A stretch of DNA of 64,000 bases from Clytia hemisphaerica (taxonomy: Eukaryota > Cnidaria > Hydrozoa > Leptothecata > Clytiidae). Position numbers and translations under genes: made by a program. Location of the stretch: contig CACVBU010001358.1 in assembly GCA_902728285.1 (NCBI GenBank), forward strand, positions 868,001 through 932,000, read 5' to 3'. A model generated the notes under the pieces. That model made no database searches. It was not told where the DNA came from and saw only the letters and a list, made by a program, of their open reading frames with translations. This document shows, piece after piece, positions 1 through 64,000 of the stretch; the stretch's first letter is position 1, and the number at the start of each line of letters is the position of its first letter.

Positions 1-16
1 AAAAGATCAGACATAC

Positions 17-15255: not shown

Positions 15256-15493
15256 CTAATAAAAAGAAAGAAATTGCTTTGCATTCTACATACTACTTCA
15301 TGAATACCTGTAACAACATAAATATTAACATGGCAAGATTATATTGAACAAAGTTCAAGTTCAATATTACTTCAAGGTTTTTGAGAATCCTTCTAAAGAG
15401 TGCATAGTTTAAAACCTTGAAAATTTAAAGAGTGCACTTAATTGAAGAAATACAGTAACTAATTTTAGCAGCGTTGTTGTCAAATTTTTGTCT

Positions 15494-37594: not shown

Positions 37595-38920
37595 ATGATG
37601 GTGGGGACTTGGACAAAGCTTATCATTACTTTCTGGTGTTTGGTGGTATTAAGAGGCCAACAAGTTCCTCTTGATCCAGACGGGTAAGTCGTGCTTTATA
37701 ATTCACTGGTGGTGGAGCCAGTGATGATTTTATTTTTGCACATTTGATCCACGCTGTTATATTCTACAGTGAGATAGTATACCAATTTAGACAACACTAT
37801 TCAATTCCTTATTTTCAGGTTCAAAGTGTGCGAGGGGACGGTGTCGTATAAAACAACACGTCGTGTATCCACCACTGTCTCTTACGCTAGAGAATATAAA
37901 ACGTGCTCATTAACAAGTCTATGGGGCGGATGTCTGTTCTGGGCACACAAACATAAATACAGGTATTTATAAAAATACCATTCTGCTGACACACAACGTT
38001 TTATCAACGTTCATACAATAGGACGTTACGAACGTTAGATGAATATCCAATATTTCCCAACTGGTCAGTTTATTAAGTAAGTCTGCCACCGCAGTCGGAG
38101 GCGACCCGAAGGCTCCTCTTTCGATAGCTATCTACCCGAAGGTATGGGAGGGCGCCACTTTTTCTCCCTGGATTGCTCTACTTACCCTTGATCCTTCTCT
38201 TGATTGCTGAGCATCAAGCAGAGAGGCATGAAGGTCTATTTTGGAAATCTTTGGTATGACCCGGCTGAGGGTTGAACCCACACCGTAGCCGAATGCTCTA
38301 CCACTGCACTACGGTCAGTTTAAGTTTTCAGCATTGACCACCAGTAAACCTCCTCATCGGTACCTTTTTTATTTTGCACCTCGCTATGTGTACCGTAGCA
38401 TGAAGGTAGAGCATCCAGCTACGGTGCGCAAGGTTGTGGGATCGATCCCAGGGTCATACCAAAGATTTCCAAAATGGTACTTGATGCCTCTCCACTTGAT
38501 GATCAGCAACTAAAGAGACGGATCAAGGGTAAGTGGGGAAATCCAAGGAAAGGAGTGGCGCCCTCCCCTACCTTCGGGTAGACAGCTATACGAAAAGGGA
38601 GCCTTTGGGTCGCCCTCGACTGCGGTCGCAAGCTTACTTACTTATGTGTACCGTGAGTATTATAAAGCATATCTCGGTTCGATTCGCGAGAGAACAAAAG
38701 TATCATAGCAAACTGATACAATTTCTTACAGACGAAAAGTTGCAGTTGTTTTAACAATAGACGATGAATGAGAAATCGTGTGTTAATCAAAAAATCATTT
38801 TTCATTTTCCCCGTAGAACAGCATATAGAAAGGCATACAGATCGGTGCACGAGGTAGCCTATCGCAAAGAACATATTTGTTGTCCTGGATGGAAGCAACA
38901 AGGAGATTCTTGTCCCATCC
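37595..38920 (+). CDS. Exons 1-3: signal peptide and EMI domain
   Basis: Two ATGs in tandem (37595, 37598) open a hydrophobic leader ([15 protein letters not shown]), cleaved probably after the Gly/Gln. The EMI domain follows: KVCEGTVSY, an S/T- and R-rich stretch, [11 protein letters not shown], then across intron 2 [19 protein letters not shown] and [15 protein letters not shown]. The CCPGW signature near the end is diagnostic of EMI. Intron 2 holds two tRNA-derived SINEs head to head. Confidence 0.88.
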
Positions 38921-41900
38921 GTAAGTGGAAGCATGTTTTATCCTCGAATGAAATATTCCTCTTGATTCATTTCGTGACTTAACTTACTTTCGGTCAACAA
39001 TCCAAAAGTTCGTGCAACAATCAAACGCGCGCGAAAATAACAAAAAATTAAATAGTGTTGCTGCGGTACACCCACTTTGGAGTAAGACAAACCAAGCTTG
39101 CGCTTTATCCACGAAAAACTTCTCACGGAGTCTTTTTTAGAAGGTACGTTGACTATTGCAAAGAGCTCAGATCAATGTTTCTTTCTACTAATCTTTAGAC
39201 TCATTGTTCAACTAAAATCTCGGTTAAAATCTATTGAGAATTTTGGTTAATTCCTCGTTTTTAGCAATTTAAAGTTCGGGCAAGAAAGTCGCTTTTGAGC
39301 TAATTGATAAATTTATTCGAATATTTCAACTCGGGAGGGGTCTATAGACTTATAGGCTATACTCTGAGCGCTATTGGACCATTCTTGAACGTTTGGATCC
39401 TCAGATACTAAGCTCGTAAATCTTAAGTCTAGCGTTTAAACTCAGAGTTAAAACTCTACCCTTTCAACTTAATTTAGAGCGCTTCCAAATCGTTTGTGGT
39501 TGTAAGATTTCGGGGAATTTCCCTTTTTTCTCAAATATTATGACTTTGATTGTACTTTAGTACTGTGGTTAATTGTACTCAACACAAAACTTTTCAAAGA
39601 ATTACATTTATGTTCATTGGGAAACTCTTTTGAACTCTTTACAACGTTCAATTCTCGTCGGCAGCCAAAAAATCGTTCAAATCAGTTAAAATTTGAATGA
39701 AATTCAGCCGAGCAGTACTAAAAAGTAAATCGTACAAAAACTAGAATCATACCTTTCAGTGTTGCGATAACATTCCCATCATTGCTTTCTATTAGCGGTT
39801 TGTGAAAGGCCGTGTGAACATGGAACGTGTATTTCGATCACCGACACCGACAACAACGAGAAAAATATCTGCCAGTGTGACCAAGGATGGAGAAAGGAAG
39901 AAGACACATCATCATGTGACAAAGGTAGTGCTCACACCTACAAAATTAAAAAAATTCAACTTTAATGAAAATAAATCTTTTTATAATAATTATAATCTTT
40001 ATTTGCCGAATTGAACTTTAAATAGATAGCATTATTTCCTATGTTACATTAAACTACGTCGAAAAATGCATTTGAAATTTTCGATTTCCCATTTTGAGGT
40101 CAAAATTTGTTATGTATATTTGGTTAACAGATGGAGCCAGCATCCGTTGCTATAGGTTAAGAGGAAGCACAATTTGATTTGTACGACAAAGTGTTTCTTT
40201 AAAACGGGAATAGATAACCTTTATTATCAAAATGTCTGTTCCCTCCTCTTAACATCACACCTGAAAATCCGAAACTATGCTCCTGGTAAATTTATTCTCT
40301 TCCTAATTCAACTTCAGATATCGATGAATGTGCGACATTGAACGGTAATTGTGACCACATCTGCCAAAACACTGATGGAAGTTACGTTTGTAGTTGCAGG
40401 AGTGGATATAAAGTTTCATCAAACCCCAAAAAATGCGAAGGTATATTTTTCGGAACACAAGACAAAGGCTTTGGAAACGACACCGTCTTAACAAGGATAT
40501 AGCGGGAATCTAGAGTACTACCTCAATGACATTATAAGGATAAAAACGTTCTTCAATTTTCTATAACGCAGGATATCTCGACTGTCAACTCCTTTTTGAT
40601 CAAAATCCTTCAGTCTTTGGAGAATCACGATTATTTTTTCTTGTATTTTACACTTTAAGATATCAACACTCCTTTTAAAACCCTCAACATATTTTCCTGG
40701 TATACTACTGTTCAGAAACCATCAAGAATTTAGCCAACAATAAACCATGTGTAGGATCCTAGCATGTTTTTACTCATTTCCCTTGACCAAACCTTGATGA
40801 AACTCTTCAGACTCTCGTAATATCTATACACCCTTCAGATATCAACGAATGCTTAGCCAACAACAAGACATGCATGTGTGTAGACCAAGCATGTACTGCC
40901 ACGTGCAAAAACATCATTGGCAGCCATCTCTGTGAATGTTCAGTTGGTTTTCATACTGTCAATAACAGAATTTGCCAAGGTAAGCTTTAACAAGGACTAT
41001 CTAAAATTTAGGAACTTTTTGACCCCACGGAAGGGGATACTAGTTTTGGATCTGAAGGGTTTAAAAAAGAGATCCTTATGGCTCACACACACCCGACATC
41101 CCCCTCCGGGTTCTTTTTAGACTTTTGATGAGCATCAGAGCTCTCTTATTCTTTTTAGCTACTGAGGATATAATCGTAGAATATAATTTTCATCCTGACC
41201 CAAAACCTAAAAACAATGCCTAGTATTTAATGTAAAGGCTTTCGCACATTATAGGTATAAATAAAATTTAGAAACTTTTTGAAACAATGTTTCATGCACG
41301 TTGGATTCATACCATGCGTCATACACCCTTAGCAGTGGGGTTGAGTTTAAGAGGTTTGGTAATGAATTTACAAAAATATGTTGCCAAAATTCTTTGTATG
41401 TAAGGATGACAATGCAACGATCATTTCAGACATTTTGACGGCACTCTAGTAACACCAGTATCTATATCCAAATGATTGATATAAGAGATATTAAGGTGAA
41501 AATGTTCTTTCAGATACGAATGAATGCTTAGTGAACAAAGGAGGATGTTCAGATATTTGTGTCAACGAAGAAGGGAGATATCATTGCCAATGTCCTACTG
41601 GTCACCAGCTCAAACAAGACAACAAAACGTGTGACGGTATAGTATACTTTATGTATAACGTGAGATGTTCCATTTGACGTGAGATGAAAATTTCGAAACG
41701 AGATCCGAAAATTGGTTCTAAAAATCAGAAATTCGAGGAAAATTCTCTTCGAAAAAGTCAGATAATCGGAGCATGGTAAGCCTTATGTATAAACCTCGTT
41801 CTCCACGTTTTTGCAATATAGAAAAGTTTTATCGGAGCCAAGGCTCTTTTTCTCAAAGTATTCTCACACCCCTGTGTCACAGACCCGGTGGACCCCCCCA

Positions 41901-44900
41901 CCCCGGTGGAAAAATAGGCCAAAAAATCGTCCCCGGTGGAAAAAATATCCTACAATTTCAACCCCACTGCGAAATTGCTCCATGATTTTATCCCCATTGA
42001 AAACTGAATGTAACAAATTGCACTCCAAAACCGTCCCCACTGGAATTTTCGAGCTGGAAACAATAGATTTTCTATCCCCATTGGCATTTTGATAGAAATT
42101 TCCATCCCCACTGAGGGAAAAAGTTCTACCGGGGCACTGAGTGAGACAGGGATGTATTCTCTCTTATGGTCTGAATAGCACAATATGAACCCTGACCTTG
42201 AAAATTATTGCAAGGTTTCTTGTTAGATTCAGAAACTGCGTTCTGGATTGACTCTCGTTAATTCGAACTCGAATGACAGTATCTTATTTGTTCGAATAAC
42301 AGAGAGATTTGAATTATAGAGAGTATTTTAAGAAGGCTTCTCCCCAACGGGAACTGAGAATAAGTTCATATTATAGAAATATTCGAAAAATAAGCGACAG
42401 TCGACTGTAACTCGAAAGTGTAGATTCGTCATATCAATTCAAAATCTCGTTTTCAGACATCAATGAATGCTTGACACAGAATGGAGGTTGTGCACATCAT
42501 TGTAATAACACAGATGGAAGTTTCGAATGTTATTGTCGTGAAGGATATTTCTTGGATGCTAACAAAAAAGATTGCTCAGGTCAGAAATGATTTTCTTTAT
42601 TCGCAGAGTCTCTATAACTCGAATGTCTCTTTAAGTCGAACACGTCTTTCAATCAAAAAAGAAAGCGTTTTCAAAGAATGTTTTCAATTTGACCAGACAT
42701 TGTGGTATGTGGTTGCATTCAACCAACTCTACGCTCATAATGAGCTATATGCTTTCCCACGTAGTTTGTGCAACACCACTATGTGTAATGGTATCTGTGT
42801 CTCGCGTGAACTGAACTAACAGTGTCTGGGTAGCAGTTCTTAGCAAAAAATGAACCTACTTCGCACTTATGTTATGTAATATCATTCAATTCGACTACAG
42901 ATCATAACGAATGTGCCACAACAAACCATGGATGCCAATACAAATGTGAAAATACACAAGGTGGATATATTTGCACATGTCCAAAAGGATTCGAATTGGA
43001 CAAAAACAACAAGAATTGTATTGGTAAGTTAAAACTTAGTCTCTTCAAACTTAACCTTAAAGATGTTGCTTTTTATAATAGAGAAAAGGGGCGCGCTTCT
43101 TATGCTAACAAAACCAACAGATAAATTTCTAAAATTTTGTGCTCGCGTTGTACGGGAGGGAGAACAAGTTGTTATTCTCTTTGTTTAAAAGTTAGTTCGA
43201 TATCTTCTGCTAAAGTTGGGATTCACAAGGGATTTACACAAAAAAAACAACCTGGGACCTTTCAAACATTTTGACATTTCGACAGTATTTCATATTTACA
43301 AAAATCTTTCCCAGATATCAACGAGTGTGAGGTCATCGTCGTGACGTCATCAGGTCGTAACACCACCATAGCAGATTGTTCATCAGGGTGTTTGAATTTG
43401 AATGGCACATATAAGTGCACGTGTCCACCTGGGTGGTTACTGTTGCATGATGGGAAGACTTGCGCAGGTAAAGTAATGGTTTCATTAGTCTGATTTAAAA
43501 GCTAAGCTTTAGAAATATTTTTTAGAAGCTTCGACTTATGAAGTTTGATTTAGGAAATTTTGACTGAGATATTCTACGTAAAAAAATCTTTGTAGAGAAA
43601 AGACAAAAGTTTACTAAGAATTTGAAAGAGAAATAGATTAAAATCACTGACCTTTATATATCCCTGGACCAAGTTACTCAATCCCGGCCAAACAAAAATT
43701 TTTGAATAGAAATTGAGATCTCAACACAAAACTCAACATCAAGTAGACACCATTTTAAAAAATGGTTTAATTTTTTAACTTTATATTCATTCATTTTTTG
43801 GTCAAATTATTTGAAATTTAGATTTCGATAGTAACCAATATTTGAAAAAAGGGAATACTCTTTTTCTTTTCAGATTATGACGAATGTTTACTAACAACAA
43901 GACCATTGTGTTCGGACACGTGCGTCAATACTATTGGTTCTTATAAATGTATTTGTGCTGATGGCTATCGACTGGCTGACAACAAGAAAGATTGCCAAGG
44001 TGAGTTTTATGTTTCTTTGGAACAAAAGTGCTCATAAAGTTGAACATTTTTAGACTTGAAACTCAAAAAGTTACGAATATTTGAAGGAACATTATATTTT
44101 GAACTATTTCAGATCTTCTAATCTTATATAAAAGAAAAGTGTATTTGCGACGGAGAATGGAAACAATGGTTTAGTAGCCTTTGTAATTCACTGGTTTCCT
44201 TCTTTTGAATCTTTGAAATATTTCAATTTGCAGGAGAGCCATGTGTTTTATTACCACGGTTAGAAAACGGTGACTCAACGTGCTTAAGTGGAATAACTGG
44301 CACCAATTGCTCTTTCTCGTGTAAAGAGGGCTTTGAATTGATCGGATCAGAAAGAAGACAGTGTATGCCAAGCCATAAATGGAGTGGTACGCAAACAGAA
44401 TGTAAAAGTAAGTTTACACTTTGTTGGGGAGGGAAGAGTTGAAAAATCGCCAGCTGAGGGAACCAATATTTTAGTCAGAATTATGAAATGATTTCAGTAA
44501 TAGGGATTTGAATTAGAGAGTTAAGTATTGACTGTATTTCCTTATATTGAATCGCTTTATTTGAATTACCAGGACTTTCCTGCGATGCACTGGATCCACC
44601 TTTCTACACTTCACTCCGTTTACCGTGTGACCACATCTACCAATCAACATGTCATTTCAAGTGTAAAGAAGGATATTATCAATCGAACACAGATTCTACA
44701 AGATCTTGCATGACCAAAAAAACTAGCAATAATAATGTGATGATGCAATGGTCTAACGAAGACTTGAAATGTTTAAGTAAGTAATAGAAAATTTATGATG
44801 CAATGGTCTAACGAAGACTTGAAATGTTTAAGTAAGTGATAGAAAATTTATGATGCAATAAGAGACATCAAAACGGGCATCTTTGAACATCAATATTTGA

Positions 44901-47900
44901 ACTCACAAATACTTTTCAATATTTTATTGCTCAAAAACTCCACAACTCGGAGATATTATCATCCAAATGTACAGCAGGTTCTAGCCTATCTCTATCCCAG
45001 CATGCGATTTTTTATCACTCTGGAACGTTGCCGTGGCAAACGTGTTTGTACAGGCAAAGCAGGTTCTAGTTTTTTTTAACTTTTTTTATTCGAATCGTTC
45101 TATAATTAGAACTAATTGCCAGTCCCCGTCTCTGGTAAAATCTTTTCACAATAGTTCGAACAAAGAAGATTCGTTTCAGTTTGAATTTACAAGGAGACAA
45201 AGTCATCGGAATGGATTATTCAAACAAGCTAAAAATGAAATCTGATTATAGACTAGTATTCAAACTTTCGTTCTAGGATATTCTTCGCCGTGTGATCCGA
45301 ATCCATGTTCAAATTCTGGTGTTTGTAAACAAAACGGGGATGCGTTCATCTGCTATTGTTCCGCTAATTTCACAGGCGCCCGATGCCAAACGCCCACACG
45401 CCCTGAACCCATCATTACTGCAACAACGCAAGGGATTTTTTACTCAAACGCTGTTTCTTATACTGGAACAATCAAGAAGTTATGCAATGAAGAAACAATC
45501 GAGAATTTAAAATTGAAAGTGTCAAGTAACATCAAATTTGATGAGAATTCATTTACGAATGGCATTGTGGGTGTTCAAGCAATCGGTTCTGATGCTCGTT
45601 TCCCAGTATCGTTATCAGGTGGAACATTCAATGATGATGGATTTGTTGCCAACGAATTGGTGAATCCAAAATACGTTCAAAATATAGTCACAACCTCCAA
45701 TGACCAATGTTTGGCTGATCAAGAACCATCAAGCTATTTACCAGAAATCTTACAAACTTATAAACCCTTCACACTGACCTTTCTTGAAGCATTTAATTCG
45801 AAACTACCCTACTGGATTCATATAATATCTAATGGTATCGCTTTACAGCCTGCTAGTTTTAACCATACAGATGTTACAGCATCGTTAAAGAAAGGTGAAC
45901 ATTTAGACCAAGACGATTCTTGTTTCGCTGGATTTAAAGTCTCACCTGACCACGTGTATTACGTATACAAGCCTACAAAAGAATTTCTATTGACTCTTCC
46001 TCTTGGGGATGGTAAAGCAATCAGGAGAGTCTGCTTTATCGTCGACTTAACATCATCCACAGTTGTCGTTACAGGCAACTTCCAAAATATCAAAGATGTC
46101 TTGATTACACATTTGTTAGTTCCGTTTGGAATTAATTCGGGTGATATTAACTATTTCGGATATGAAAATCAAAATCAATTATTGTTCTCCGGTGCTACTC
46201 GACCTGTATTTGTTGATGGCAAACTAGATATTTCTGTAGATTTGAATGGATATTTCAAAATGGATGCTCCATTGCCAGATTTATATTCTTCGAATTCGAA
46301 AACCTCCATCAGTACAAACAAGGCTATGACCAATATCAACATCACTTTTGAAGCATTAAGTCAGACAGAAAAACTTGAAATCACAGATACTAAAAGTGAC
46401 ACAAGGATTGAAACAATAAGTTCAGATGTATCGACTGGTATGTGTCAAACTTCCAGAGTTTTAACAAGCACTCTTGGAGCTTACAACCTCAAATTACCAA
46501 CAATTCTTAAGAAATTCATCAATTTTGTCAAAGAAAAAGATTTGAAACTGACACTAAAAGACATTAGTCAAGGCCACACATCAAAACCATCCGTCGGAGT
46601 AAATGACCAACAAGAGTTACAAAAGGCAATCACAGAGTTTGATAACGATCTAAAATACATACAAGGTCTGAAAGGAATTAGCTCAAAAATCAAGTCACAA
46701 CATGAAGCCCTAATAAAAGCTCAAAATTCCATAAGTACTTCACTTAAAGGATTCCAAAACTCGTTTGCTTCAAAAGCAGCATCACAAATTGTCAAAGAAA
46801 CATCAAATCTTCGGCAAAAGTTATCGGAAGTAGAGCATCAGCTATTTTACTTCTCACGCAATTACGTCATCGAAAACCAAGGACAAGAGATAACTTCCGT
46901 TGCACAATATGCACAGAGAATCGAAAAGGTTGTTAAAGCTTTGGGAATGTACACAGTGACAACTGATAAAACAGGGATACGCACACTACTTGAATTAGAA
47001 GGCTCTGGTGATTTTTGTATCTCTCCAGATAGTTGTTTCTCAGGTGGAAATATTACTTTGATTGCTGGCAAATATCTAAATTCTTGTTCCAGTGGAAAGA
47101 TAATCATGCCAACTGGAGAAGATGATTTGGTGATCTTATATGAAGTTCCAAATGATGTGTACATTGGTTCAACTTTCAAGGTCTTGTCTGGTGAAAAGAT
47201 ACAATTAATTATACCTAGTATGGGAGATGACAAAGATGTTTCACTGACGTTCAAAGGTAAGCGAGGATTTGATTTCATTACATTCTTTGATCAAAAATGA
47301 AGGAAATTAGAATAATCGTAGCCTGTACCACACTCTTCTTTGCTGACTGAAAAGATAACCGTAAACCATAACAGACCGACCTACGGCAAGTTTTTTTCAA
47401 AATATAAAAAACGCCTGTGGCGGTGGGTTGGTGTACATAGGCTAGAATAATAGGTAAGCTAATTACCGAATTTCCGGTATTCCAATACTCGTCATAAAAT
47501 TTTTGGCCGGTATTTAAAAGATTTTTTGCCGGTACGGCAGTATTTAATGAACAATTTACATGTATCTCGGTATTTTGTATCTTTGGAAGATTTTACATTC
47601 TATTCTTTTGTTCTTACAAAGGCAATTGGGAACTAGCTGGTATGTCTTTCCAATCAAACGTTAAGCTGAACACAGCAACTGGAAAATTCCAAGTCAAAGA
47701 CACCATAAAGATTCTCAATGATAACGTAAAAATCGATATAACAAATGAAGATAATGATTTTTTGTCAATCAATGGCGACTTTGATACCAGTAATTTAACC
47801 AAAAACATATTGACCAAATTTAAAGAGATTGTTAGTGACAGGAAAAAACGTTTTGAATCTGAAAAGGCGACCATCCAAAGGGAGCTCAAAACAATGAAAG

Positions 47901-50900
47901 CAACATTGGAGCACCAAGTGGCGAAACACGATGCAGAAGATGAGAAGCTGAAAGAAATCAAAGAGGATATAAGTAAAATCGAGGGTGAGATAAAACAACA
48001 AACAAGTCTAGTGGATGCAAAACGAAAGGCAGTTCACGAGTCACTAGATGGTAATCTCAAAAGGGACGAGTTTATGCAAAAATGTGCCCTGGGTCCGAAC
48101 TACTGTCAACAGTACTGCTTGTCTCACTTAGAAGCTAAAGAATGTTTACAAGACTCTAAGCAACGCATTATTTTTAAAGTTGAGCATCAATGTAGAGAAG
48201 AGAACTATGTCAAAAACATCGTGAAAATCAACGGCACCATGAAACTCAAAATCAACGAAATAAAAACTTTACAAAAGGTTGAGTGTGAAAACAACTGTCC
48301 ACTCTTATTTGGTCAGAAATTATCATTCAGTGAATCAGCAGTAGATTTTGATAAGTTATTTCACTGTTACCGCACATGTGACTCTGTACAAGTCCCGGTT
48401 CTTCAAAATCGGGAAATCACCAAACCGATTCGGGATATACAAAAGGAATCGGAGAAAGTAACTCGTTGTACCAACATTTTTCAACAAATGATTCCGAAAC
48501 CTGGACAGCCATATGATCAAGAAAAAGAACTTTGTTATCATAACCGAATATGCGCGACCAGCATCGATCAGATGTGCTTGACCAACGTTACCGATTGCAA
48601 GACTAAGATCCAGTCGATGGCAAGCTCTTCTACATCAGGCTTCAAGGTTGCTTTCGATGACTTCACCAAGGAAGTGAATACTTTAGAGATCATGAAAAAA
48701 CGCAAAGAAACTCTCGATCAAGTCTCAAGAACACAGCAACATATTGTCGTCTTCTACAATAACATCATAACCAAAACTCGTGAATATCTTTCCAACCTAC
48801 ACACCCTAGAAACCAACATCGATCCATGGTCTAGTACCAAATTATCGAAATTCCAAACAGGTGCTGGGTTACAAATAACAGACCTTTCATTTGAGATCAA
48901 ACACGAGTTAGGTCAATCTATGTTACCAAACCTCCCTTTGAGAATTCAAAGCAAAGATTACAAGGGTGATACATTGAAACCTGTCAATGTTTTGTTTGAC
49001 GTGAAAAATGAAAATCAAGCCATCTTCGAAGCAGCTGATTCCCTGATTGACATGATTGAAGAAAAGGTAAATACTTTTTTTATTCAATACACCCCTGTCT
49101 CATTGACCTGGTGTAAATTTTCTAACTAGTGGAGATAATTAGATGAAAGACTAAATGCCAATGAAGATAGAAAATCCCCAGGTTTTAATGAGTGAGGATT
49201 TTAATTCTATTGTTTAAAGCTCGAAAATTCCTGTGTGGATTTTCACAAGTGTTTTTCCCACGTATTTAATATGAGAGATTTTGTTGATGGCAACTTACAA
49301 TATTATCGAATAATGGAGTGTATATCGAATAGTAGAAGGTCGAATTAGAGAGTGTCAACTATACTTGAATTCAGCAAAATGCAGTTTTAATATACTCTAC
49401 ATATTTTGCTTTTCAGGCTCATTCATCTTTGTGTTACAACGTGGAAACATCTGCAGTCTATTTAAACAATTTCGTTCTCACTGTTGACAAACTGATCAAA
49501 GATTACGAAAACACCGAATTAGCATACTTCAGGAATGTCACCAAAGTTGAACACGAAAATAAGCAACTATACGATCAAATTGTCAGAGAACTATCCAATG
49601 CTTCCAATATTGATTCGTTAAAGACAGATTTGAAGAAGCTGATTCCAAGCTATATACAATGGAATGTGACATTTTCAAAATTTATGATGAAACTACAAAG
49701 CTCTTCTCATGGCTATGGTGAATGTTACTCTTTTGAAGACTGTATTGATTTCCACATGGCGAGGATCAAAAGATATTTGACTTTCAAGGATACCAGTTTT
49801 CTGCAGTCCTATGAAGAACTTGGTAAGTATAGCTATGGTTATCATATTTTGGAGACGGGTATGTGCCGCTCTTAAGGGTGTTTTTTGAAACCTGGAAAAT
49901 AAAGCTAGAGGAAATTGGATCTCCAACGGTCTGAAAAATACGAAAATTCTAACTTTTTTGTCCCTTAATAAATTGAAATTTGGTCAAATTACTCCCAAAA
50001 AGGTTCTTAAAATTGACAAAAGTTACCTATTTTTCCTCCTTGTTAGTCCCACTAAGGGTTCGAAGGTAAAAGGTTGAAAGCACATACCTGTCACCTATAA
50101 TGTTCCTTTCTGGAAAAAACAAGTGGCTTTGGCTAACTAGTATTATCGGGCTAAAAAATGTGGATAATTCTCCAGTAGAATGAGAAATTTATGCGCTCAT
50201 TTCTTTCATCATAGGTGAAATTCTAAAAAAACTGATGAACGATGATCTCGACATCAATCAAGCCAAGGAGATGAGCAAATCTGCCAAAGACAAGATGTCA
50301 AAACAAGATCCAGTTGTTTTATTCTGTGGCTTACCTCCATCCATCAAATACAAGCTGAATAACCAGATAAGTGTCAAAGAATACGAAGAATTATCTTTAT
50401 CTGTTATTGTGACGCCCAGTAATTTTGAATACTTTGTCACTTGGAGGAAAGATAACGTGATCATACCAGGCCACCATAAATCAGATTACCAGAAAAACGC
50501 AACGATGGCCGACGAGGGTTGGTATTCATGTCACGTGGAAAATAAGTTCGGATCAACAGAATGCGGTGTTGTTAAAGTAGATATAATTGCAAAACCCATA
50601 TTTCATTATTTCCCTAAGAAGGTTACTGTGTACGAAAAATCACCAAAGAAATATCAATATTTAACATGTAATGTTACCGGTGCTGACAGACTGCAATGGG
50701 TGTATCAGCCTTTTGATGATACAAGACAAACAGAATTTTCTGGTTCTCAGTTCTGGTTTAACGCTTCGCCAGGACTAGAATGGAACTCAGGTTATTATTG
50801 GTGTGATGCTAGCAATGATGGTTTCAAATTGAAAAGTCCGATAATCGCATATAGCAGACAGGCTGTACAGAATGGTATTACAGTCACAAAAATAACTATT

Positions 50901-53900
50901 GATTGGCAAGAACCAGCTTCTAGGCGGCGCCGGAGGAGCTCTCGAAAGCGGCGCCAGATACCAAGCGATGTTTCAGCCAGAGATTTAAATCGTTTAAAAT
51001 ATATGCTATCTCTAGAGCTTAAAGTCAACGCTGATGCTATAAAAGAACTGAAATACATTAAAAACAATCATCAAAAAGCTAAAGTCACATTTACACTTGA
51101 AGGAAAAGATTTCAATAGTGAATTATCAAAAGTTGATACATGGGATGATTTAACAGATCAGGTCATGGAAGATCGACGATCAACAGTCAGTAAAATTGAA
51201 ACATTGAATAATACTCTTGGTTCTTCAAATTGGGTATTGGAAAACGGCCAGGCGTTGAAATTCGTTCCGTCAAGCATGGAATTGTCAAAAACAACCGTTA
51301 AATGTTCAACTGGATTTGGACTGATTGAGAATGGGTTTATGTGTGGTAAGTGTAGTTTAAGAGCCATTTTTTTTTAAAATCTTCAGAATAAAGAAAGTCT
51401 GATACCTCACCCTCTTATATTTTGATGAAATTTTGACCAAATGATCTATCACACAAGAAAATAAGACTCTGAAAATTTCACCTTGATATCTCAAGTAGTT
51501 TTGAAGATACAGCGTCTCAAAGATAGGCTACTAAGCGAAAATTGACCCCTAAAAATCATGCACTCTGGTGGGGAGCAGATTTTGAAAGCCAATGAATTTT
51601 TATTCAAGTACATTAGAAAGCTGATTTACAGTGGATTTCAAGAACTTTTTGTAGGGAATCAGAAAAAATCAAATTGAGTCTCCAAAATTTTCTCCGAAAA
51701 TCTCTAGCACCTCCTGTAGAGGGCTTCAAACTTTGCGTAATCTGGGTTTGGAAGCACTTTTAGCTGACTGCTGATGGTCCTTGGGACTTTTTTGAAGTAA
51801 ACTTTTGACCTGGAGTGGTTTACTGGTGGGTTTTGGCCACAAAAATAACATTTTGATCTTCTCTAGTTAACTAATCATTGGCATTAGGGGAACAACTGAA
51901 AAAGATTTCAGGTCATTTCCATCAAAACAGATGACATTTTATGACAGTTTCTTTATTTTTAAGTACAGAATATGTAAAAAAATGAGACTGACATCTGGCG
52001 TTTCCTACCATTCCAGAGCCTATATTTCCAGAAAAAAACTCAACCTTTCACAGTTTGGTGAATATTAATCTTAAATATAAGCAGGTTACTTCAACTTAAT
52101 GGGTTTAAGAGTACTCAATTTCTATTCAAAAACTTTTTAGACTCCTGGAAATTATTGTCAAAGTAGGATTTCTAAACATGCTTATTAGAGCCTTTGGAAG
52201 TAGCTCACTAGCTTATAAGGTCGCGTTTTTACGTTTTTTGCTTAAAAAAGCCTTAAATAGAGCTTAAATAGAGCTTTTTAAGCGTTTTAAAGCTATTTTA
52301 GTGAAAATTCGTCGGTTCTGCCCCCTTCGCTGGACTTCAATGGGTCTAATCCATTGCAAGGGAGTGTCCCACGAGGTTTAGGACCATTGGGAACCAGCTC
52401 AGCCCCGTATGGAGCTCAGAATAAGCTTAACTAAGGCTCCAGTAAAGCGCTGTAAGCTTACAGCGTAAGCCCGGGCGGCTCTGTAGGCCTAAAAACCGGT
52501 TTTCTGGCAAAACTACTGTTCCCAGCCGGTTCTAAACCCTCTAAATCGCTTTAGCAGCATGAAAACATGCTAATTAGAGCCTTTGGAAGTAGCTCACTCG
52601 CTTATAAGGTCGCGTTTTTACGTTTTTTGCTTAAAAAAGCCTTAAAATCGCTTAAATAGAGCTTTTTAAGCGTTTTAAAGCTATTTTAGTGAAAATTCGT
52701 CGGTTCTGCCCCCTTCGCTGGACTTCAATGGGTCTTACTTGTTGATTCTTAAATAACTAAGCAACATTACAAGGGTGATAATTTATGAGATACTGCAAAC
52801 AATGCTGTTTAAATCTTCTGGACAAGAAATATTGGATAGTCTAAAGCTAATCACAACACTTGGACTTAGAAATTTTGTGGTAAAGCGCAAATCGATCATA
52901 TCTTTAAGAGACTTCAAAAGCCCATTGAGATTTTTTTGAGGCTATAAACTAGACCTACTAAGGAAGCCTTGCTGAAAATTTCAAAAAGATTTGGTGTTGC
53001 CTTAAAAAGATACGCCATCTTGAATTTTGCTCCAGGTCTGCCGAAATAGCAATTTTTTTGGCCATTTTTGACGGTTACGCAAAGATGGAAATCCTAAAAA
53101 TGTTATTTTAGTGGCCAAAACCCACCAGTAAACCACTCCAGGACAAAAGTTTACTTCAAAAAAGTCCCAAGGACCATCAGCAGCCAGCTAAAAGTGCTTC
53201 CAAACCCAGATTACGCAAAGTTTGAAGCCCTCTACAGGAGGTGCTAGAGATTTTCGGGAAAAATTTTGGAGACTCAATTTGATTTTTTCTGATTCCCTAC
53301 AAAAAGTTCTTGAAATCCACTGTAAATCAGCTTTCTAATATACTTGAATAAAAATTCATTGGCTTTCAAAATCTGCTCCCCACCAGAGTTCATGATTTTT
53401 AGGGGTCAATTTTCGCTTAGTAGCCTATCTTTGAGACGCTGTATCTTCAAAACTACTTGAGATATCAAGGTGAAATTTTCAGGGTCTTATTTTCTGTCTA
53501 AATTTCAGCAAAATCCAAGAGGGTGAGGTATCACACCCTGAAGACTCTTAAAAAAAATGGCTCTTAACCCTTATAAAACCCGAGGACAACAAACTTATAA
53601 AAAGTCTTATCAAATATTTTGGTTGGCCCGGGTTGGCCGAGATTGATATATGTTTTTTTAAGAATACAAAAATTCGAAAATAGGCTTAGAGATGCTTAGG
53701 TTGAGGGTTTGATAAGGCTGAAAAAATGGTTACAAAGAAGCTTCTATCCCAAGCAAACTTTTAGGGAAATTCCGAAAATCCGTAAAATCCCAGCCAAAAA
53801 TAGCAAAAAAACGCCTAGAAATGCTTATAAGTGCAATGCTTATAAAAAACATGTGAATTGTCTCAAAAGTTATATATAACTCAATGGGATCAATCCTTTA

Positions 53901-56671
53901 AGTCGAAACTTTTGCAAAACCTTAACTCAGGGAACTAAGTTCTTTTCCACAATCCTGTACCGTTTTCCTAACCACACCCATGTTTCAATTAATTGGATTT
54001 CGACAAACTATATACTCTCGGGTACCTAATAGCCGTCCCCCCGCTAATTAATTTTTCTAAAATTTTCCACCCAGGACACTCTTATTCCAACCCCCCCTAC
54101 TCACTTATTAAATTTTGAATTTGGGTAAATGTTTTTGAAAGTTCCCCTCTTTTGTCTTAATTCTGCTGTAATAGCCTCCTTTTCAAAAATTTTCCACCCA
54201 GGCCATTTTTATTCCAATCCCCCGCTTATTAAGTTTTAAGAGTTTTTCCGATCCCCCCGGCTATTAGGTACCCGAGAGTAAGTGACATAATCTAAAGATA
54301 TACCTTCCAGAAGATAATTTTTAAAATCATTTTGTCAAAAACTTCCCCTTACTATTTCTAGGGTGTACATGCATTAAAAAGTTCACAACAGCTTTCATTC
54401 TTTTTAGGTCAGTGCCCAGCTGGAAGTCGATCCATTGATTCTCGATGTGTACCATGTACAAAAAACTTTTATCAACCAAAAGCTGGTCAAACAACTTGTC
54501 TACCATGTTCATTTGATCACGTGACTGATGATGCTGGTGCAATATCACCTGACGAATGCAAAACACCACGTAAGCTCTATTAAAATATCTAGCCTTTTTC
54601 AGTAAAGATGAAAAATCAATTCCAAATATTAGTAAATCTTTAGAAATTTTTAGAAAAATACCTTTAGCAAGGATAGTATAGCTATGAAGTAAAAGTTATG
54701 GAATAGCTGACAGACCGATCCATTTAAAATATAAACCCATAGTAAATACCGAAACTGTCATAACCATTTTTAATGAGGGTTAGACTTTGCTGTCATTTTG
54801 AGCTAATTGGGTTTTTGGTCCATAAAATGTCACTGTTTCATGAATACTTTTTTTTGCTTTAGCATCGACATTAGCTCCACCAACAACTTCAAAACCGCAA
54901 ACTCCACCAATAATAAACCCATCCAAACCTACTCAAGGTACTGGAGACAAAGACACTCAAGGAGTTGAAGAAAATGAAGATGACAATGTCATTATTATTG
55001 CACCAATCATCGCTGTAGTCTTAATCTTCATCATTATCATCGGTAAGCTTGTATTCATGATAAAATGCACCATTGCAATGTCTAGATTACATCACGGACC
55101 CAACAGCTGATTTGTTGCAAGTGACGTATTGACTGATTTTGCGTCACTTTCAACCAATCAGCTGTTGGGTTTACGGTGTGATGTCGAAGACATTGCAGTA
55201 ATAATGCATATCATGAACTTATTATCTAAAACCTAGTATTACATGATCTGGAAAGTGACAGAGCCAGATTTTTTTGACCATGTTAATTTGCGCCGACGGG
55301 TCAAAATTTCAATGTCTTTGAAAGTGTGAATCGTGATATTCTAAAAATAACCTTTTTTTGAAAACAAAAGAGAGGGAGCCATGAGCTTACCTGTTGGTCA
55401 TGGAATCAAGGAATCTCAATATTAAATGCTTAATCAAGCGTCCTATCATAAGCTTCAATCTTCAAGATTCTTAAGGAACACCACGTCAACTATAAACACT
55501 TTCCATCATGACTGTTCTATACAGGAACAAACTTAAAGTTTTGAGAATTAAATCTTTCTGAGACTTTGGTCAGCTACTAGTTGCTGAAAATAATTTGAAG
55601 TTTTAAATGCGATAGACCTTTTTAGGAAGAATAACAATTATTGTCCTGTAGTGACCAAATTTATTTTCCTTAATAGTTGCTGTGTGTTTTATACGTCATC
55701 GTCGAAGCGAGCGCCAACGTAAAATGAAAACATTTTCACACGATCATATACAACCAACATCTGTTATCAATCCGTCTTTCGTTAACGGTGAAGATCCTTA
55801 CGCTCGAATCCCTTTCCAAGACGATGAAGACGTTTATACAATACCTGAGAAAAGTTTCAAGAAAGCTAACAAAAGTGTATCTCAGAAACGCCTCATACAT
55901 AACGCATATGAGTTTGATGGACCCCCTCAGACTTCGAGTTCTACAGATTCCCCTTACGTACCATCGAGCTCAAGCCGACCTAAAAAGCCTTCTTCAAACG
56001 GTGACCTAAAGAAAGAGCTTGCTACACGAGCAGAACCAAACCCTTATACAGCACCTACACGACCGCTGAATACAGGACAAAATGCAGATCTATCAAATCC
56101 TTGTTATTCTACTGTTGAGGATGTCATGGCAGATAAACAACGAATTGATATGAGTAAGCCTTCGTCTGAAAGTAATCAAAACCGGGCTATACCAAATAAT
56201 TATACGACTGTTGATGATATTGAAAAGCCTGATAAATTAACAGTAGAGCTTGGGAAAGATAATACGGTGCCGGGTCCCGGGGAAAGGGCCGTACCTAATG
56301 TTTACGTGGATGATTTACAGCCGACAGGCCGACGCAAAGCGCCGCCTCTACCCACACGAAGACATACAACAAAACCTGATTTAGACAACACTGATAATGT
56401 GTTTGAAAAGCCGGTACCGGCAAAACGGAACACGGTCAACGGTGACCGGCCACCGATTCCCGAACGTAGAGATTTACCGACGTACGAGCCAGTTCTTTCT
56501 AAGAAACGAATGCAAAGTCGTTCCTCAGTTTCTAAAGATTCCGCCAATCAGTATGAGTCTTTGGGGCCACATGATTTCAATAACAAAGGATTTGAGAACG
56601 ATGCTTTTAAAGATGATAATGAAGAAAATAATTATGATAAATTGGACAGGCAACAGACCTACAAACAATAA
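37595..56671 (+). CDS. Large type I membrane protein: EMI, EGFs, sushi, Ig, ephrin-like repeat, signalling tail (20 exons)
   Basis: Exons: 37595-37683, 37819-37962, 38817-38920, 39796-39924, 40318-40440, 40839-40979, 41514-41636, 42457-42579, 42901-43023, 43315-43467, 43874-43999, 44234-44407, 44573-44776, 45277-47256, 47622-49066, 49417-49822, 50215-51345, 54408-54569, 54863-55042, 55677-56671. They sum to 8,055 nt, giving 2,684 residues with a terminal stop and no internal stop. Introns 1-2 are phase 2 and intron 15 phase 0; all others are phase 1. Order: signal peptide; EMI 30-110; EGF 113-155; seven EGFs 156-459; sushi 460-517 and 518-585; EGF 586-622; unknown region with coiled coil to about 1890; two Ig-like domains; furin-like site 2106-2109; ephrin-like repeat 2240-2293; transmembrane 2336-2359; tail to 2684. 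EMI at one end and NPxY/YxxL motifs at the other recall CED-1/Draper/MEGF10 engulfment receptors, but the middle is different. A likely role is adhesion or recognition; the function is not known. Confidence 0.88.
38073..38312 (-). mobile_element. tRNA-derived SINE (family A), copy 2
   Basis: Minus-oriented copy in intron 2 of the receptor gene, with head near 38312 (ACCGTAGTGCAGTGGTAGAG on the minus strand). GGTCAGTTTA on both sides (38063-38072, 38313-38322) is a 10-bp target-site duplication. Confidence 0.88.
38397..38642 (+). mobile_element. tRNA-derived SINE (family A), copy 3
   Basis: Plus-oriented copy flanked by the 12-bp duplication TATGTGTACCGT (38385-38396 and 38643-38654). With copy 2 it forms a head-to-head pair only about 85 bp apart. 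Confidence 0.88.
39796..43999 (+). CDS. Exons 4-11: one EGF and seven calcium-binding-type EGFs, one per exon
   Basis: Exon 4 encodes a plain EGF ([22 protein letters not shown]). Exons 5-11 each encode one EGF with the opening D-x-(N/D)-[72 protein letters not shown] and [13 protein letters not shown]. This is the calcium-binding pattern. Exons 5, 7, 8 and 9 are exactly 123 nt; exons 6, 10 and 11 are 141, 153 and 126. Exon 6 has an extra CMC insertion and exon 10 a longer first loop. All are phase 1-1. The consensus Asn/Asp in the third loop is not obvious in every repeat, so hydroxylation is uncertain. Confidence 0.9.
41866..42154. mobile_element. CTTCTCACAGACCC-type MITE, diverged copy 4 (intron 7)
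   Basis: ACACCCCTGTGTCACAGACC at left, GTGAGACAGGGATGT at right; interior rich in TCCCCACTG and GGTGGAAAAA repeats as in the other copies. Confidence 0.65.
42245..42425. repeat. Tigger/pogo-like fragment (intron 7)
   Basis: GACTCTCGTTAATTCGAACT at left and AGTCGACTGTAACTCGAAAG at right, with ATTCGAA-type units between, resemble ends of Tigger-type elements. Similar TAACTCGAA pieces occur at about 42611 and 56740-56840. Confidence 0.4.
43646..43720. mobile_element. One-ended copy of the ACTGACCTTTATATA MITE (intron 10)
   Basis: ACTGACCTTTATATATCCCT with CCAAGTTACTCAATCCCGGC matches the left arm of the element at 12962-13243; the other arm is missing. Confidence 0.6.
44234..44776 (+). CDS. 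Exons 12-13: two sushi (CCP) modules
   Basis: Exon 12: [46 protein letters not shown], a textbook CCP with Trp before Cys4. Exon 13: [43 protein letters not shown], a longer CCP with an Asn-rich loop. Both are phase 1-1. The end of exon 13 and its donor are tandemly duplicated (44741-44850). Confidence 0.88.
44741..44850 (+). repeat. 55-bp tandem duplication across the exon 13 donor
   Basis: Units 44741-44795 and 44796-44850 differ at one base (GTAAGTAATAG versus GTAAGTGATAG); a third unit starts (10 nt). Each unit holds the last 36 nt of exon 13 and a GTAAGT donor. Use of the second donor would add an in-frame TAA soon after the first, so the first is taken as the real one. Confidence 0.85.
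45277..47256 (+). CDS. Exon 14 (1,980 nt): EGF plus a large region of unknown fold
   Basis: The exon opens with an EGF ([31 protein letters not shown]). About 620 residues follow that were not recognised: a beta-rich part with scattered cysteines ([28 protein letters not shown]) and NxS/T sites, then a helical stretch ([14 protein letters not shown] to [19 protein letters not shown]), then another beta-rich part with [13 protein letters not shown]. It ends phase 1 in the phrase SLTFKG. Its size is unusual next to the one-domain exons upstream. No stop or frame break. Confidence 0.8.
47622..49822 (+). CDS. Exons 15-16: coiled coil and cysteine-rich helical region
   Basis: Exon 15 (1,445 nt, ends phase 0) continues with a beta-rich start, then a strongly charged coiled coil (about 47815-48050: [20 protein letters not shown], then heptads to KRKAVHESL). 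A cysteine cluster follows ([57 protein letters not shown]). Exon 16 (406 nt) is helical with [14 protein letters not shown]. No known domain recognised. The coiled coil could support oligomerisation. The exon 15 acceptor is TTCTTACAAAG and the donor is AAG followed by GTAAAT. Confidence 0.78.
50215..51345 (+). CDS. Exon 17: two Ig-like domains, furin-like site and a juxta-repeat region
   Basis: Ig-like 1: [39 protein letters not shown]. It has the core Trp and the F-strand D-x-G-x-Y-x-C, but the B-strand Cys is replaced (SVIV). Ig-like 2: [18 protein letters not shown] and [13 protein letters not shown] has both cysteines. A polybasic run (50922-50954) follows, ending RKRR before QIPSD, a good furin consensus. 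Then about 125 residues, SEA- or GAIN-like in size and position though not by clear motif, end [16 protein letters not shown]. The donor at 51346 is followed after 11 nt by a transposable element. Confidence 0.82.
51357..53567. mobile_element. 2.2-kb foldback element with ~500-bp arms, TTAA-flanked (intron 17)
   Basis: Left arm about 51357-51857 and right arm about 53096-53567 are inverted copies of each other over roughly 470-500 bp, with small indels. The ends read TTAAGAGCCATTTTT and AAAAATGGCTCTTAA. TTAA at both ends suggests a piggyBac- or Kolobok-type non-autonomous element. It starts 11 nt after the exon 17 donor GT. The centre carries 174-bp direct repeats. Confidence 0.85.
52174..52736 (+). 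repeat. 174-bp direct repeats flanking a 214-bp spacer (TRIM-like)
   Basis: 52174-52348 and 52563-52736 are near-identical, from AAACATGCT through TCGCTGGACTTCAATGGGTC, differing mainly where one reads CCTTAAATAGAGCTTAAATA and the other CCTTAAAATCGCTTAAATA. The spacer is more GC-rich than its surroundings. The layout resembles a miniature LTR element, but clear TG/CA ends or a primer-binding site were not confirmed. Confidence 0.55.
54015..54278. mobile_element. MITE with CTCTCGGGTACCTAATAGCC termini (intron 17)
   Basis: Perfect inverted ends CTCTCGGGTACCTAATAGCC / GGCTATTAGGTACCCGAGAG flanked by TA. The interior contains AAAATTTTCCACCCAGG twice. Confidence 0.8.
54408..56671 (+). CDS. Exons 18-20: ephrin-receptor-like repeat, stalk, transmembrane helix, cytoplasmic tail
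   Basis: Exon 18 encodes [47 protein letters not shown], an ephrin-receptor-like repeat. Exon 19 encodes a Thr/Pro stalk, an acidic patch (EENEDDN) and the start of the membrane helix ([17 protein letters not shown]), completed in exon 20 (VAVCFI) and followed by [10 protein letters not shown], a stop-transfer. The tail has 12 tyrosines. Motifs include YARI, YTIP, NPYT, NPCYSTV (NPxY), YTTV, YEPV, YESL and YDKL, and two proline motifs, APPLPTRR and RPPIPERR. These suit PTB, SH2 and SH3 partners. The stop codon is at 56669-56671. Confidence 0.88.
55061..55215. mobile_element. CATTGCAATG-type palindromic MITE, copy 4 (intron 19)
   Basis: AATGCACCATTGCAATGTCT at left, GACATTGCAGTAATAATGCA at right, with CCAACAGCTGATT / AATCAGCTGTTGG inner arms. 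Confidence 0.75.
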
Positions 56672-58189: not shown

Positions 58190-58880
58190 TTTATTTAAAG
58201 GACACGCCCAGTTCATCATCTCTTTCAGTTTTCTTATAGCCTCTTCGTCGTTTGAAAAAGATCATTAATACAACCAGCCCAGGCACCACTAACACTACTA
58301 ATGCAATCAAAAAAATTGTATCCACTACCAATACCAGGCCCTCTGGGCTCGACTGACATTCTGTGTACCAGTAAAACATCCACTACATTTGCACGTGTAT
58401 TCCATTGATTGGTTCCCATTCCTCTTGCAGGCTCCATTATTTTGACAAGGATTATCAAAATAGCAAACATCTTTATTTTCACAGCGTTCTCAAAATATCC
58501 CGAATGACAATTACATTTGAATGTGTTTTCAATTGCCATACAAATACTATTACTCACATACCGACAAGGATTGTCTAATAAACAAGTATTATTGAATTGG
58601 CAGAATTTTCCATGATGGTACCTTTTACTGCATTGGCAATATTGTAATTGAGCCCATTAACCACATGACATTTTGCACCGTTCTGGTATTCATTGTGCAT
58701 TGATGGAGCTTAAAGAACATTTCATTCAGTGGATCTGTAAGATGAAAATTTGCAGGGTCCACCCAATTGGTGTACCAAGAGGGTACCATGCTTTTTAAAA
58801 CAAGAGCCACAAAGATGTGGTTAAATATTTCCTCCAATAGCTCAGAGCATAGATTGTAGTCGCAGTCGAACCTCACAGAT
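58190..58880 (-). pseudogene. Relic of a mucin-like EGF/transmembrane protein gene
   Basis: Minus-strand frames, when followed across four shifts, give: a possible SEA-like piece (VRFDCDYNLCSELLEEIFNH), EGF pieces (YCQCSKRYHHGKFCQ; TCLLDNPCRYVSNSICMA, FKCNCHSGYF; RCENKDVCYFDNPCQNNGAC, YTCKCSGCFTGTQ), then a membrane helix (DTIFLIALVVLVVPGLVVLM) and a short basic tail ending DDELGVSFK with a stop at about 58191. Frame changes fall near 58700, 58660, 58500 and 58375. SEA-EGF-TM with a short tail is the 3' end of membrane mucins. No introns are seen, so it could be a processed copy, but no poly(A) tract or duplication was found. Confidence 0.65.
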
Positions 58881-62359: not shown

Positions 62360-63184
62360 TAAAAGCATCTATTATGATCTAGTTTTCTTTTTAGCATCTG
62401 GCATCAAGGCTAAAAATGGGGCACTGAGAAGAGTGCAAGCTTTTCCAAGTTTTGACCATTAATATCTAGACAATATATACATGATGGAAATCAGAAAGAA
62501 ATTTATGCTCACCTCCTTATGGGAAAAATAAATTCAGCACACACGAGAGAAACTCAGGCAGTCCTCTGAGCTTTACACACAATCATTTGTTTTATTTGCT
62601 TTTAGCTGGTAAAAACCCCTGCCATATTTTGATAGAAGGATACTATTTTCTTCCCCGCTAAATCTTCAAGACGATTTTTAGTCACGTGACTGAAGAGCCT
62701 AGTCATAATGTGCAGCACGAATGAAGAAAACATTAACATCGAAAATGGACGAAGAAAAGACGGAAAAAGGCCGTTTTAACAAATATTCCCCTATAGTAGG
62801 GAAATATTTAATAAGAAGAACTGACAGATTGTAATACAAAATACTAACCTTAGTTGCAAAGTTCCCGAGTATCAATCTCCTCCTTATATTCTTCTGCATA
62901 TGATATTTTCTTTATTGCTACCTTTTTTCAAAAAATGAAGACATCAAAGTGTTTTGTTTACGAATAGAGCGCGGGAAAATCTAAAGGCCGGTCTCCACTT
63001 GCGCGCGCGGGAAAATCTAAATCGAACACTCAAACGTTCGAAATTCGAATTCGAATGTTTTGGGGAATTCGAATGTTTTGAACCGCAAAATTCGAATGTT
63101 TTTGGAATGACTAAAATAAATTCCGAAATTCAGAAAAAAAATCAAATCAGGACAGGATCAGGACGCCTGGCATTGAATTGGAAA
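62360..63184 (+). promoter_or_regulatory. Upstream region of the SNF5-like gene
   Basis: AT-rich, becoming CG-containing just before the gene (GCGCGGGAAAATCTAAA occurs twice, 62970 and 63004), then three TTCGAATGTTTT units at 63047-63103. The duplicated GCGCGGGAAAA resembles an E2F-type site. This is a proposal from sequence only. Confidence 0.4.
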
Positions 63185-63930
63185 ATGGCAAGAGAAATCT
63201 ATAATGGAAAATATCCAACAATATATCTTTTGGAAGAGCATGGCGAAAAGTTCATGCTCGGAAGTGATGTCGGTGTATTTATGAACTACTACAAAGGTGC
63301 TCTTTACAAGAAATACCCTTCAATGCATCGAAGAATCTTAACATCAGATGAACGAAGTATTCTAAGTGGATTGAGTATGAGAAAACACAGGTCTTTAACT
63401 AATATGGGGACTATGGTAGTGAGAGCTAGCGAAGCCATGAAAATTATGACTGGTCAAGGAGAGCATTTTCGCAACAAATATACCAAAGCTGCTGCCGAAA
63501 ATAACGAAGCAAAGGAAGCTATTAACGTTGCCTTTTGTAGGGCAAGAGCTCAAAGTAAAGACCTACCTAATCTACGAGAGAATTTAGATTTTTTGCCAGG
63601 TGCAAAAGAAAGAAATTTTGAAGCTATGGCCAGGAGACGTGCAAAACAAGAGACTTGTTATGAATTTTGTCCGAAACTTTTGAATTTTGCGACTCGTCAG
63701 GTTGAATATGCAGCTGACTTGTGTCCTGAATCGACAGTCATGAATAGCGTCTCTCTGATCAACAAACCACCATCTTCCAAATTCTCCGAGGACAAAAGAA
63801 AAAGCAAAAGAACGAACAAAAAGGCGATTGAGAACACAGGAGACAAATCTTCGATTGATGAAAATGTTGAAAATATTGAGGATGATAACGTACCACAGAA
63901 ACCTTTAAAGAAATGTTCGAGTCATTTGTG
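63185..63930 (+). CDS. SNF5/SMARCB1-like protein, first coding exon (partial)
   Basis: From ATG 63185 the protein starts MAREIYNGKYPTIYLLEEHG and continues EKFMLGSDVGVFMNYYKGAL, YKKYPSMHRRILTSDERS, with VVRASEAMKIMTGQG later. This matches the N-terminal winged-helix domain of SNF5/SMARCB1, a core subunit of SWI/SNF chromatin remodellers, including the F-M-x-G-S-x-V-G and G-x-L-Y-K-x-Y-P-S blocks and the distance from the start Met. The same frame is open from 62954, with another ATG at 63107; 63185 is preferred by similarity. The rest (about 63500-63930) is Lys-rich and not recognisably SNF5. A GTAAGT donor at 63931 ends the exon in phase 2; the SNF5 core domain would lie outside the window. 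Confidence 0.65.
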
Positions 63931-64000
63931 GTAAGTTTTTGTCGGGTTTTTGTGTTTTTGAAGGAAAATACTGAAAGGTCTAGAAAAGTGGGAATCGCGG

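Follow-up and report, generated by a model that had tools for sequence, protein, structure and literature searches.

Between positions 37595 and 56671 on the plus strand of a 64,000-nucleotide stretch of the Clytia hemisphaerica genome (the window), a run of exons raises the question of whether one gene can encode a receptor with so many kinds of extracellular domain and, if so, to which family it belongs. The initial annotation, made from the letters alone, had read them as 20 exons of a single gene for a type I receptor. We rebuilt the gene from stop-free frames, choosing the splice sites ourselves. This reconstruction gave the same start and end and again joined 20 exons in a single reading frame that encodes 2,684 residues and closes with one stop codon, with GT-AG borders at all 19 introns. 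Exon 16 has an alternative possible donor 12 codons further on, which would give 2,696 residues. A search with exon 17 found a single copy of the gene in the assembly. The mitochondrial genes of this assembly suggest that the organism is probably a medusozoan cnidarian: the cox1 match, with three internal TGA codons, lies on one contig and strand with cob, which is upstream of it, and cob gives HIARGLYYG when AGR is translated as Arg (table 4) but not under table 5. Cnidarians, sponges, and some other non-bilaterians use this code, and cob followed by cox1 is the medusozoan gene order. A search for GFP gave nothing, a result that is no proof of absence.

The predicted protein begins with a signal peptide, followed by an EMI domain, an EGF-like repeat, seven calcium-binding EGF repeats, then two sushi repeats (the second weak), and another EGF. 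Some 1,270 residues that match no Pfam family above its cut-off come next. They lead to two Ig domains, of which the second is weak, and to a polybasic site; after an ephrin-receptor-like repeat the chain crosses the membrane in a single helix and ends in a tail with tyrosine motifs. Exon 1 (37595 to 37683) supplies the start codon and the signal peptide, the latter judged by hydropathy. The EMI domain is split between exons 2 and 3 (37819 to 37962 and 38817 to 38920) and scored 37.3 bits against a Pfam cut-off of 25 (PF07546) when that segment was submitted alone; it was unlisted when the whole 630-residue N-terminal piece was given. An EMI scan of the whole genome listed one match, over exon 3. 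Exon 4 (39796 to 39924) encodes an EGF-like repeat recognized by eye from its cysteine pattern, and exons 5 to 11 (40318 to 43999) encode the calcium-binding repeats, one per exon (EGF_CA, 2.2e-40 over seven stretches). The sushi repeats of exons 12 and 13 (44234 to 44776) reached 24.6 bits over two stretches of the whole piece (cut-off, 20.7), the second repeat alone scoring 17.4 bits, under the cut-off; both are matched in a paralogue, described below. Exon 14 (45277 to 47256) opens with an EGF (2.7e-6) and runs on into about 618 residues of the unmatched region, hereafter the central module.

The module continues through exon 15 (47622 to 49066), which is coiled-coil-like, rich in cysteine, and free of Pfam matches above the cut-off, and through the helical exon 16 (49417 to 49822). 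Exon 17 (50215 to 51345) carries the end of the module, Ig1, Ig2, the polybasic site, and a post-Ig domain. Its Ig_3 match (7.2e-9) scored 36.5 bits over two stretches against a cut-off of 30; Ig2 alone scored 15.3 bits, under that cut-off. The ephrin-receptor-like cysteine repeat fills exon 18 (54408 to 54569; Ephrin_rec_like, PF07699, 49.2 bits). The initial annotation had called for domain searches, and these placed EMI, EGF_CA, sushi, Ig_3, and Ephrin_rec_like above their Pfam cut-offs. Intron 17, between exons 17 and 18 (51346 to 54407, 3.06 kb), contains an inverted repeat that looks mobile-element-like by eye, with mirror-image open reading frames at 51.5 to 51.9 kb and 53.1 to 53.5 kb.

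Besides the signal peptide, hydropathy revealed one strong hydrophobic segment, in 19-residue windows starting at residues 2331 to 2346. Exon 19 (54863 to 55042) encodes the stalk and most of this membrane helix, and exon 20 (55677 to 56671) encodes its end and a cytoplasmic tail of about 327 residues. The tail contains an NPxY motif (NPCY, 56096 to 56107), YESL, YDKL, YTIP, YTAP, and the proline-rich sequence APPLPTRR. We compared these motifs with 2,000 shuffles of the tail. The six Yxx[LIV] motifs exceeded the shuffled mean of 1.5 (P = 0.001), and the one NPxY, against a mean of 0.10 (P = 0.10), was not significant alone. YESL and YDKL lie 27 residues apart, which is not ITAM spacing. The signal peptide, single membrane helix, and tyrosine-motif tail that had been read from the sequence were confirmed.

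We then asked whether the same domain order occurs elsewhere in the genome, whose assembly totals 417 Mb in 951 contigs. Searching it with exon 14 gave 49 matches, one of which extended beyond the EGF; it was weak (4.5e-4) and lay at 662 kb on the minus strand of the same contig. We read the DNA from 636 to 686 kb and modelled the gene there with splice sites chosen by a simple score and free phase; the model was not blind, the core peptides having been picked by us. The result was a complete paralogue, P2, on the opposite strand about 230 kb from the window gene, with 23 exons running from contig position 675250 to 650611 and encoding 2,529 residues. Its domain order is that of the window gene from the signal peptide to the NPxY tail, and each domain aligned with its counterpart. 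The order EMI, calcium-binding EGFs, two sushi repeats, EGF, central module, two Ig domains, ephrin-like repeat, and membrane helix therefore recurs, at full length, in another gene.

A forced global alignment of the two proteins has 660 identities in 2,238 aligned residues (29.5%). The two models have the phases of their first 13 introns (2, 2, and then eleven of phase 1) and of their last three in common; within the central module the phases differ. The recurrence of the order, together with these common phases, is more than chance would give. Using tblastn, we matched the calcium-binding EGFs of the two genes at up to 2e-13, the sushi exons at 9e-12 and 8e-6, and residues 1803 to 2248 at 1e-31. 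Residues 869 to 1184 matched at 0.005 only, and for residues 1185 to 1802 no match was listed at E values up to 1. Homology of the central module therefore rests mostly on domain order and on the family alignments. The P2 EMI domain scored 17.2 bits, under the cut-off of 25. The P2 tail is short, with 87 residues against 327 in the window gene; it has NPLY, so that NPxY and YxxL occur in both of the tails read, and it lacks the PxxP and YxxP motifs of the window tail.

We searched for further members with exon 17 (six matches), with a 782-residue exon of the relative C753 (19 matches), and with a piece of C186 (seven matches, among which the window gene, P2, and C628 were unlisted). Eleven of the 19 matches to the C753 exon, confined to query residues 474 to 648 (the Ig pair), were set aside without being read. 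Eight family places emerged: the window gene, P2, C829, C753, C905, C186, C552, and C628. At all five places where we read upstream DNA (the window gene, P2, C829, C186, and C905), two sushi-like repeats, an EGF, the central module, and the Ig pair follow one another in that order. Both sushi repeats exceeded the Pfam cut-off in C186, one of two did in C905 (the other at 17.3 bits), and in C829 the first repeat, the only one submitted, did so. Ig domains exceeded the cut-off in C186, C905, C628, C552, and P2. Calcium-binding EGFs were found at four of the five upstream places, in the window gene by Pfam, in P2 and C829 by tblastn, and in C186 by eye; the C905 DNA that was read stops short of this region. 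At C829 the latter half of an EMI domain gave a match (2e-4), and the ephrin-like repeat was above the cut-off in the window gene, P2, C829, and C186. A membrane helix and tail are present in two members, the window gene and P2; the DNA that we read below C829 revealed neither. In C829, C753, C905, and C186 the module and the Ig domains are joined within single open frames, 803 to 1,319 residues long.

This looks like a real receptor family repeated in the genome, a membership that the initial annotation had missed. Judged from sequence, the locus very likely holds a single gene that belongs to this family; the claim of a single type I receptor gene gains support from the recurrence of its order in P2 and from exons that bridge domain borders. 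A tree of the Ig module paired the window gene with P2 (98/98), although long branches meet at that node, and P2, its nearest relative there, is 19% identical to it over 646 columns. The sole close pair, C753 and C829, shows purifying selection; neither is the window gene. These two are 95% identical to each other, and over 782 codons dS was 0.148 and dN was 0.024, giving a dN/dS of 0.16. By part, four ratios fell between 0.10 and 0.18, and that of Ig1, based on 14 changes, was 0.50. Outside the exon their identity was 81%, with many gaps. We take the family to be under constraint. At C628 the open frame is listed as 3,018 residues, of which the 1,294 that we read look helical before the Ig pair. 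Just before an SSCD motif, the ectodomains of C905, C186, and C753/C829 have a glycine-rich hydrophobic stretch (for example, IGAGIGSFFGPVGAGVGAAVGYVLSRFSSCD) that resembles an internal fusion or pore peptide and was unseen in the window gene and P2.

The central module itself could be assigned to no established family in the collections searched. Residues 628 to about 1900 of the window protein had no Pfam match above the cut-off, and scans of the module in four and five family members returned only EGF above it. Against PDB sequences, the best 60 of 102 matches to exon 14 all lay in or beside the EGF, as did the best 60 of 128 matches to a profile of the first half of the module; a profile of the second half gave seven weak matches, mostly to coiled coils. 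Within the family, the module part of exon 14 aligned with exons of P2, C829, C186, and C905, and the later part of exon 15 aligned with the seven other places. Single-sequence structure predictions had mean pLDDT values of 31.9 for exon 17 and 31.1 for exon 14, too low to be informative. No relatives outside the genome were confirmed when exon 14 was compared with viral contigs and exon 17 with prokaryote contigs, collections that were little informative.

How such a precursor might be processed is suggested by its basic motifs. In the module alignment, six of the eight places (P2, C829, C753, C905, C186, and C628) have in common a basic motif whose last residues are RRS; it precedes a conserved cysteine and the Ig pair. 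The window gene and C552 are without this shared furin-type site; C552 has RSKR somewhat further on. The corresponding point of the window gene is interrupted by an intron, and the start of exon 16 aligns with the site of most relatives. A hidden site in this intron, intron 15, was considered and rejected: no RXXR was found by eye, and the nearest candidate, a short frame ending in SRRSN, was unfit. The strongest basic site of the window gene instead follows Ig2 (11 residues, 2099 to 2109, at 50922 to 50954 in exon 17, found by motif scan) and is not shared with the aligned relatives. The strong furin-like site of the window gene is predicted at a position other than that of most relatives, which lies before the Ig pair, a difference that the initial annotation had missed. 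Two minimal RX[KR]R motifs, at residues 1319 and 1843, also precede the Ig pair of the window protein, and further ones occur in P2. Cleavage at the strong sites would release the Ig pair of the window gene together with the N-terminal chain and, in most relatives, leave the pair membrane-bound. The order of strands and helices after the furin site recalls a SEA domain; pLDDT there is about 40, and we do not claim SEA identity.

We compared the window protein with known families. The CED-1/Draper/MEGF10 receptors have an ectodomain in which EMI is followed by tandem laminin-type or atypical EGF repeats. The window protein resembles these receptors and PEAR1 in its N-terminal EMI domain and in the NPxY and YxxL-type motifs of its tail, the likeness that had first been remarked on, as well as in having EGF repeats and a single membrane helix. 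Its EGFs, however, are of the calcium-binding type, matching EGF_CA, cEGF, and FXa_inhibition, with EGF_laminin unlisted by Pfam, and its sushi, Ig, and ephrin-like domains and central module are foreign to that group. Because its EGFs are of another type and so much else is present, it is not a Draper/MEGF10 member, even though the tail motifs stand.

EMI followed by calcium-binding EGFs is also known in MEGF6 and EGFL7, which are secreted and have no sushi, Ig, or ephrin-like domains, membrane helix, or tyrosine tail. The window protein has their EMI and their EGF and calcium-binding EGF repeats but adds all of those other features, including the helix at residues 2331 to 2346. SCUBE proteins combine an EGF array and ephrin-receptor-like cysteine repeats with a CUB domain; the window protein has the first two, but no CUB was listed by Pfam. 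Notch has a long EGF ectodomain cut by furin into two chains, LNR repeats, and an ankyrin tail. The window protein is like it in its long EGF ectodomain and predicted cut into two chains but has a different tail, and neither LNR nor ankyrin was listed by Pfam. Hydractinia Alr proteins have Ig domains, tyrosine motifs in the tail, and high allelic polymorphism under diversifying selection. The window protein likewise is cnidarian and has Ig domains and tail tyrosine motifs, but its ectodomain is differently made up, and the related pair C753/C829, which does not include the window gene, has the low dN/dS given above.

Polydom/SVEP1 proteins come closest in their mixture of domains. Their core, according to PMC12549020, consists of sushi, hyalin repeat, and ephrin-like domains, and the Polydom-like proteins of Nematostella described there have EGF, sushi, hyalin, and ephrin-like domains, some with Ig. 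Such proteins are expanded in a cnidarian, according to the same paper, and the window protein shares with them EGF, sushi, and ephrin-receptor-like repeats and, with some, Ig. Unlike them, it has an EMI domain, a membrane helix, and a signalling tail. Pfam listed no hyalin repeat (HYR) in the parts scanned, which did yield sushi and ephrin-like matches, and none of the vWFA and pentraxin domains of full Polydom; the window protein is therefore not a Polydom. In PMC8748825, one gene of Rhopilema is recorded as combining ephrin-like, Ig, PLAT, and EGF_CA domains. From every known family against which it was fully tested, the window protein departs in a defining feature. What is unmatched is the full domain order and the central module, not single domain combinations. 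The earlier statement that no described family has this order thus held in the open-licence literature, in which we found none; it needs the qualification that partial combinations are known (MEGF6, EGFL7, and the Polydom-like proteins). Animal protein databases lay outside this search, and unnamed predictions of the family may be present in them.

We consider the locus best explained as an intact gene for a single-pass, furin-processed, tyrosine-signalling receptor for adhesion or uptake, a reading to which we give a probability of about one-half and whose ligand and function we infer. A furin-type protease would probably cut the precursor in two, separating an N-terminal chain from one anchored in the membrane. 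In most relatives the cut would precede the Ig pair; in the window gene it would, with less certainty, follow Ig2. The EMI/EGF/sushi arm and the Ig pair could then bind matrix, another cell, or a particle. Receptors clustered by binding would have their tail tyrosines phosphorylated by Src/Syk-type kinases, and the phosphorylated tail would recruit PTB, SH2, and SH3 adaptors, leading to adhesion or uptake as in PEAR1, MEGF10, and Draper. The window receptor would thus work like the Draper/PEAR1 class without belonging to that family. Its adhesion or uptake role, which we draw by analogy, is proposed tentatively.

The domain arm could also be read as that of a matrix-anchoring adhesion protein, of the fibrillin, MEGF6, or Polydom type, whose tail only links to the cytoskeleton. 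This is possible but doubtful. EMI domains and calcium-binding EGF arrays are typical of matrix proteins, and the Nematostella proteins, as PMC12549020 describes them, mix EGF, sushi, ephrin-like, and in some cases Ig domains; against it stand the membrane helix and the NPxY/YxxL tail in both members read. An innate immune receptor for microbes, of the scavenger type, with the sushi and Ig domains as its binding parts, is unlikely. Related exons at eight places and strong divergence (19% between the window gene and P2 over 646 columns) fit such a receptor, but Pfam listed no lectin, SRCR, CTLD, or LRR family for the window protein, and the only close pair is under purifying selection. That pair bears equally on the suggestion of self/non-self recognition, as by Hydractinia Alr or Botryllus fuhc, which we consider very unlikely. 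The Ig pair, the YxxL tail, and the presence of two family members on one contig are in keeping with it, but the overall dN/dS of 0.16 between C753 and C829 gives no sign of diversifying selection in the pair, and the suggestion, which concerned the window gene rather than these two, gained no support. Finally, a misjoining of two neighbouring genes, one for a secreted EMI/EGF/sushi protein and one for an Ig/ephrin-like receptor, could be hidden by the 3.06-kb intron before the ephrin-like exon in a model built from genomic sequence alone, but we reject it as scarcely credible: exon 14 holds both the EGF and part of the central module, exon 17 both the module end and the Ig pair, open frames bridge module and Ig in four relatives, and the whole order recurs in P2.

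A more novel reading appears improbable to us. It would place these genes in a cnidarian receptor family not described before, whose two-chain, furin-processed members share a new extracellular module of about 1,270 residues. The main cleavage site would have moved in the window gene, so that its Ig pair departs with the N-terminal chain rather than remaining at the membrane, and a linked Polydom-like gene on the opposite strand would encode a ligand, as SVEP1 is for PEAR1 in mammals. Were this borne out, a cnidarian lineage would have produced a receptor family of its own, with very large EMI/Ig members and engulfment-like tails, unlike Draper/MEGF10, Alr, and Polydom in make-up. For studies of structure and ligand binding, the central module is new ground: it had no Pfam match above the cut-off and, among the best PDB matches, none beyond its EGF and coiled coils. 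What the Ig pair does could be tested directly through the difference in cleavage sites between members.

The linked gene has a Polydom-like layout and occupies positions 1 to 15292 of the window on the minus strand, running out leftwards to C928 at about 859 kb. Six of its ephrin-receptor-like repeats were scanned within the window, four of them above the Pfam cut-off, and it also contains EGFs and a stretch weakly resembling sushi (15.1 bits); two stretches that look hyalin-like by eye had no Pfam match. No Polydom-like neighbour of P2 was seen when cysteine-rich frames were scanned by eye over 40 kb of the 50 kb that we read there. PEAR1 has an EMI domain, as does the window receptor. SVEP1 is a ligand of PEAR1, which gives a phosphotyrosine signal on SVEP1, according to PMC9932102. 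By this analogy, a ligand-receptor link between the Polydom-like neighbour and the window receptor is only a suggestion.

Elsewhere in the window, broken-up frames on the minus strand at 22292 to 25452 look by eye like a LINE-type endonuclease and reverse transcriptase. An EGF-like frame at 58191 to 58656 on the minus strand scored 17.5 bits, under the cut-off, and a hydrophobic frame beside it, which has a basic tail, may be the last part of another membrane protein gene. At about 59.9 to 60.7 kb, both strands give repetitive translations that suggest a tandem array, as far as translations alone can tell. A frame on the plus strand at 62939 to 63934 matched the SWI/SNF INI1 DNA-binding domain (PF21459, 70.5 bits).
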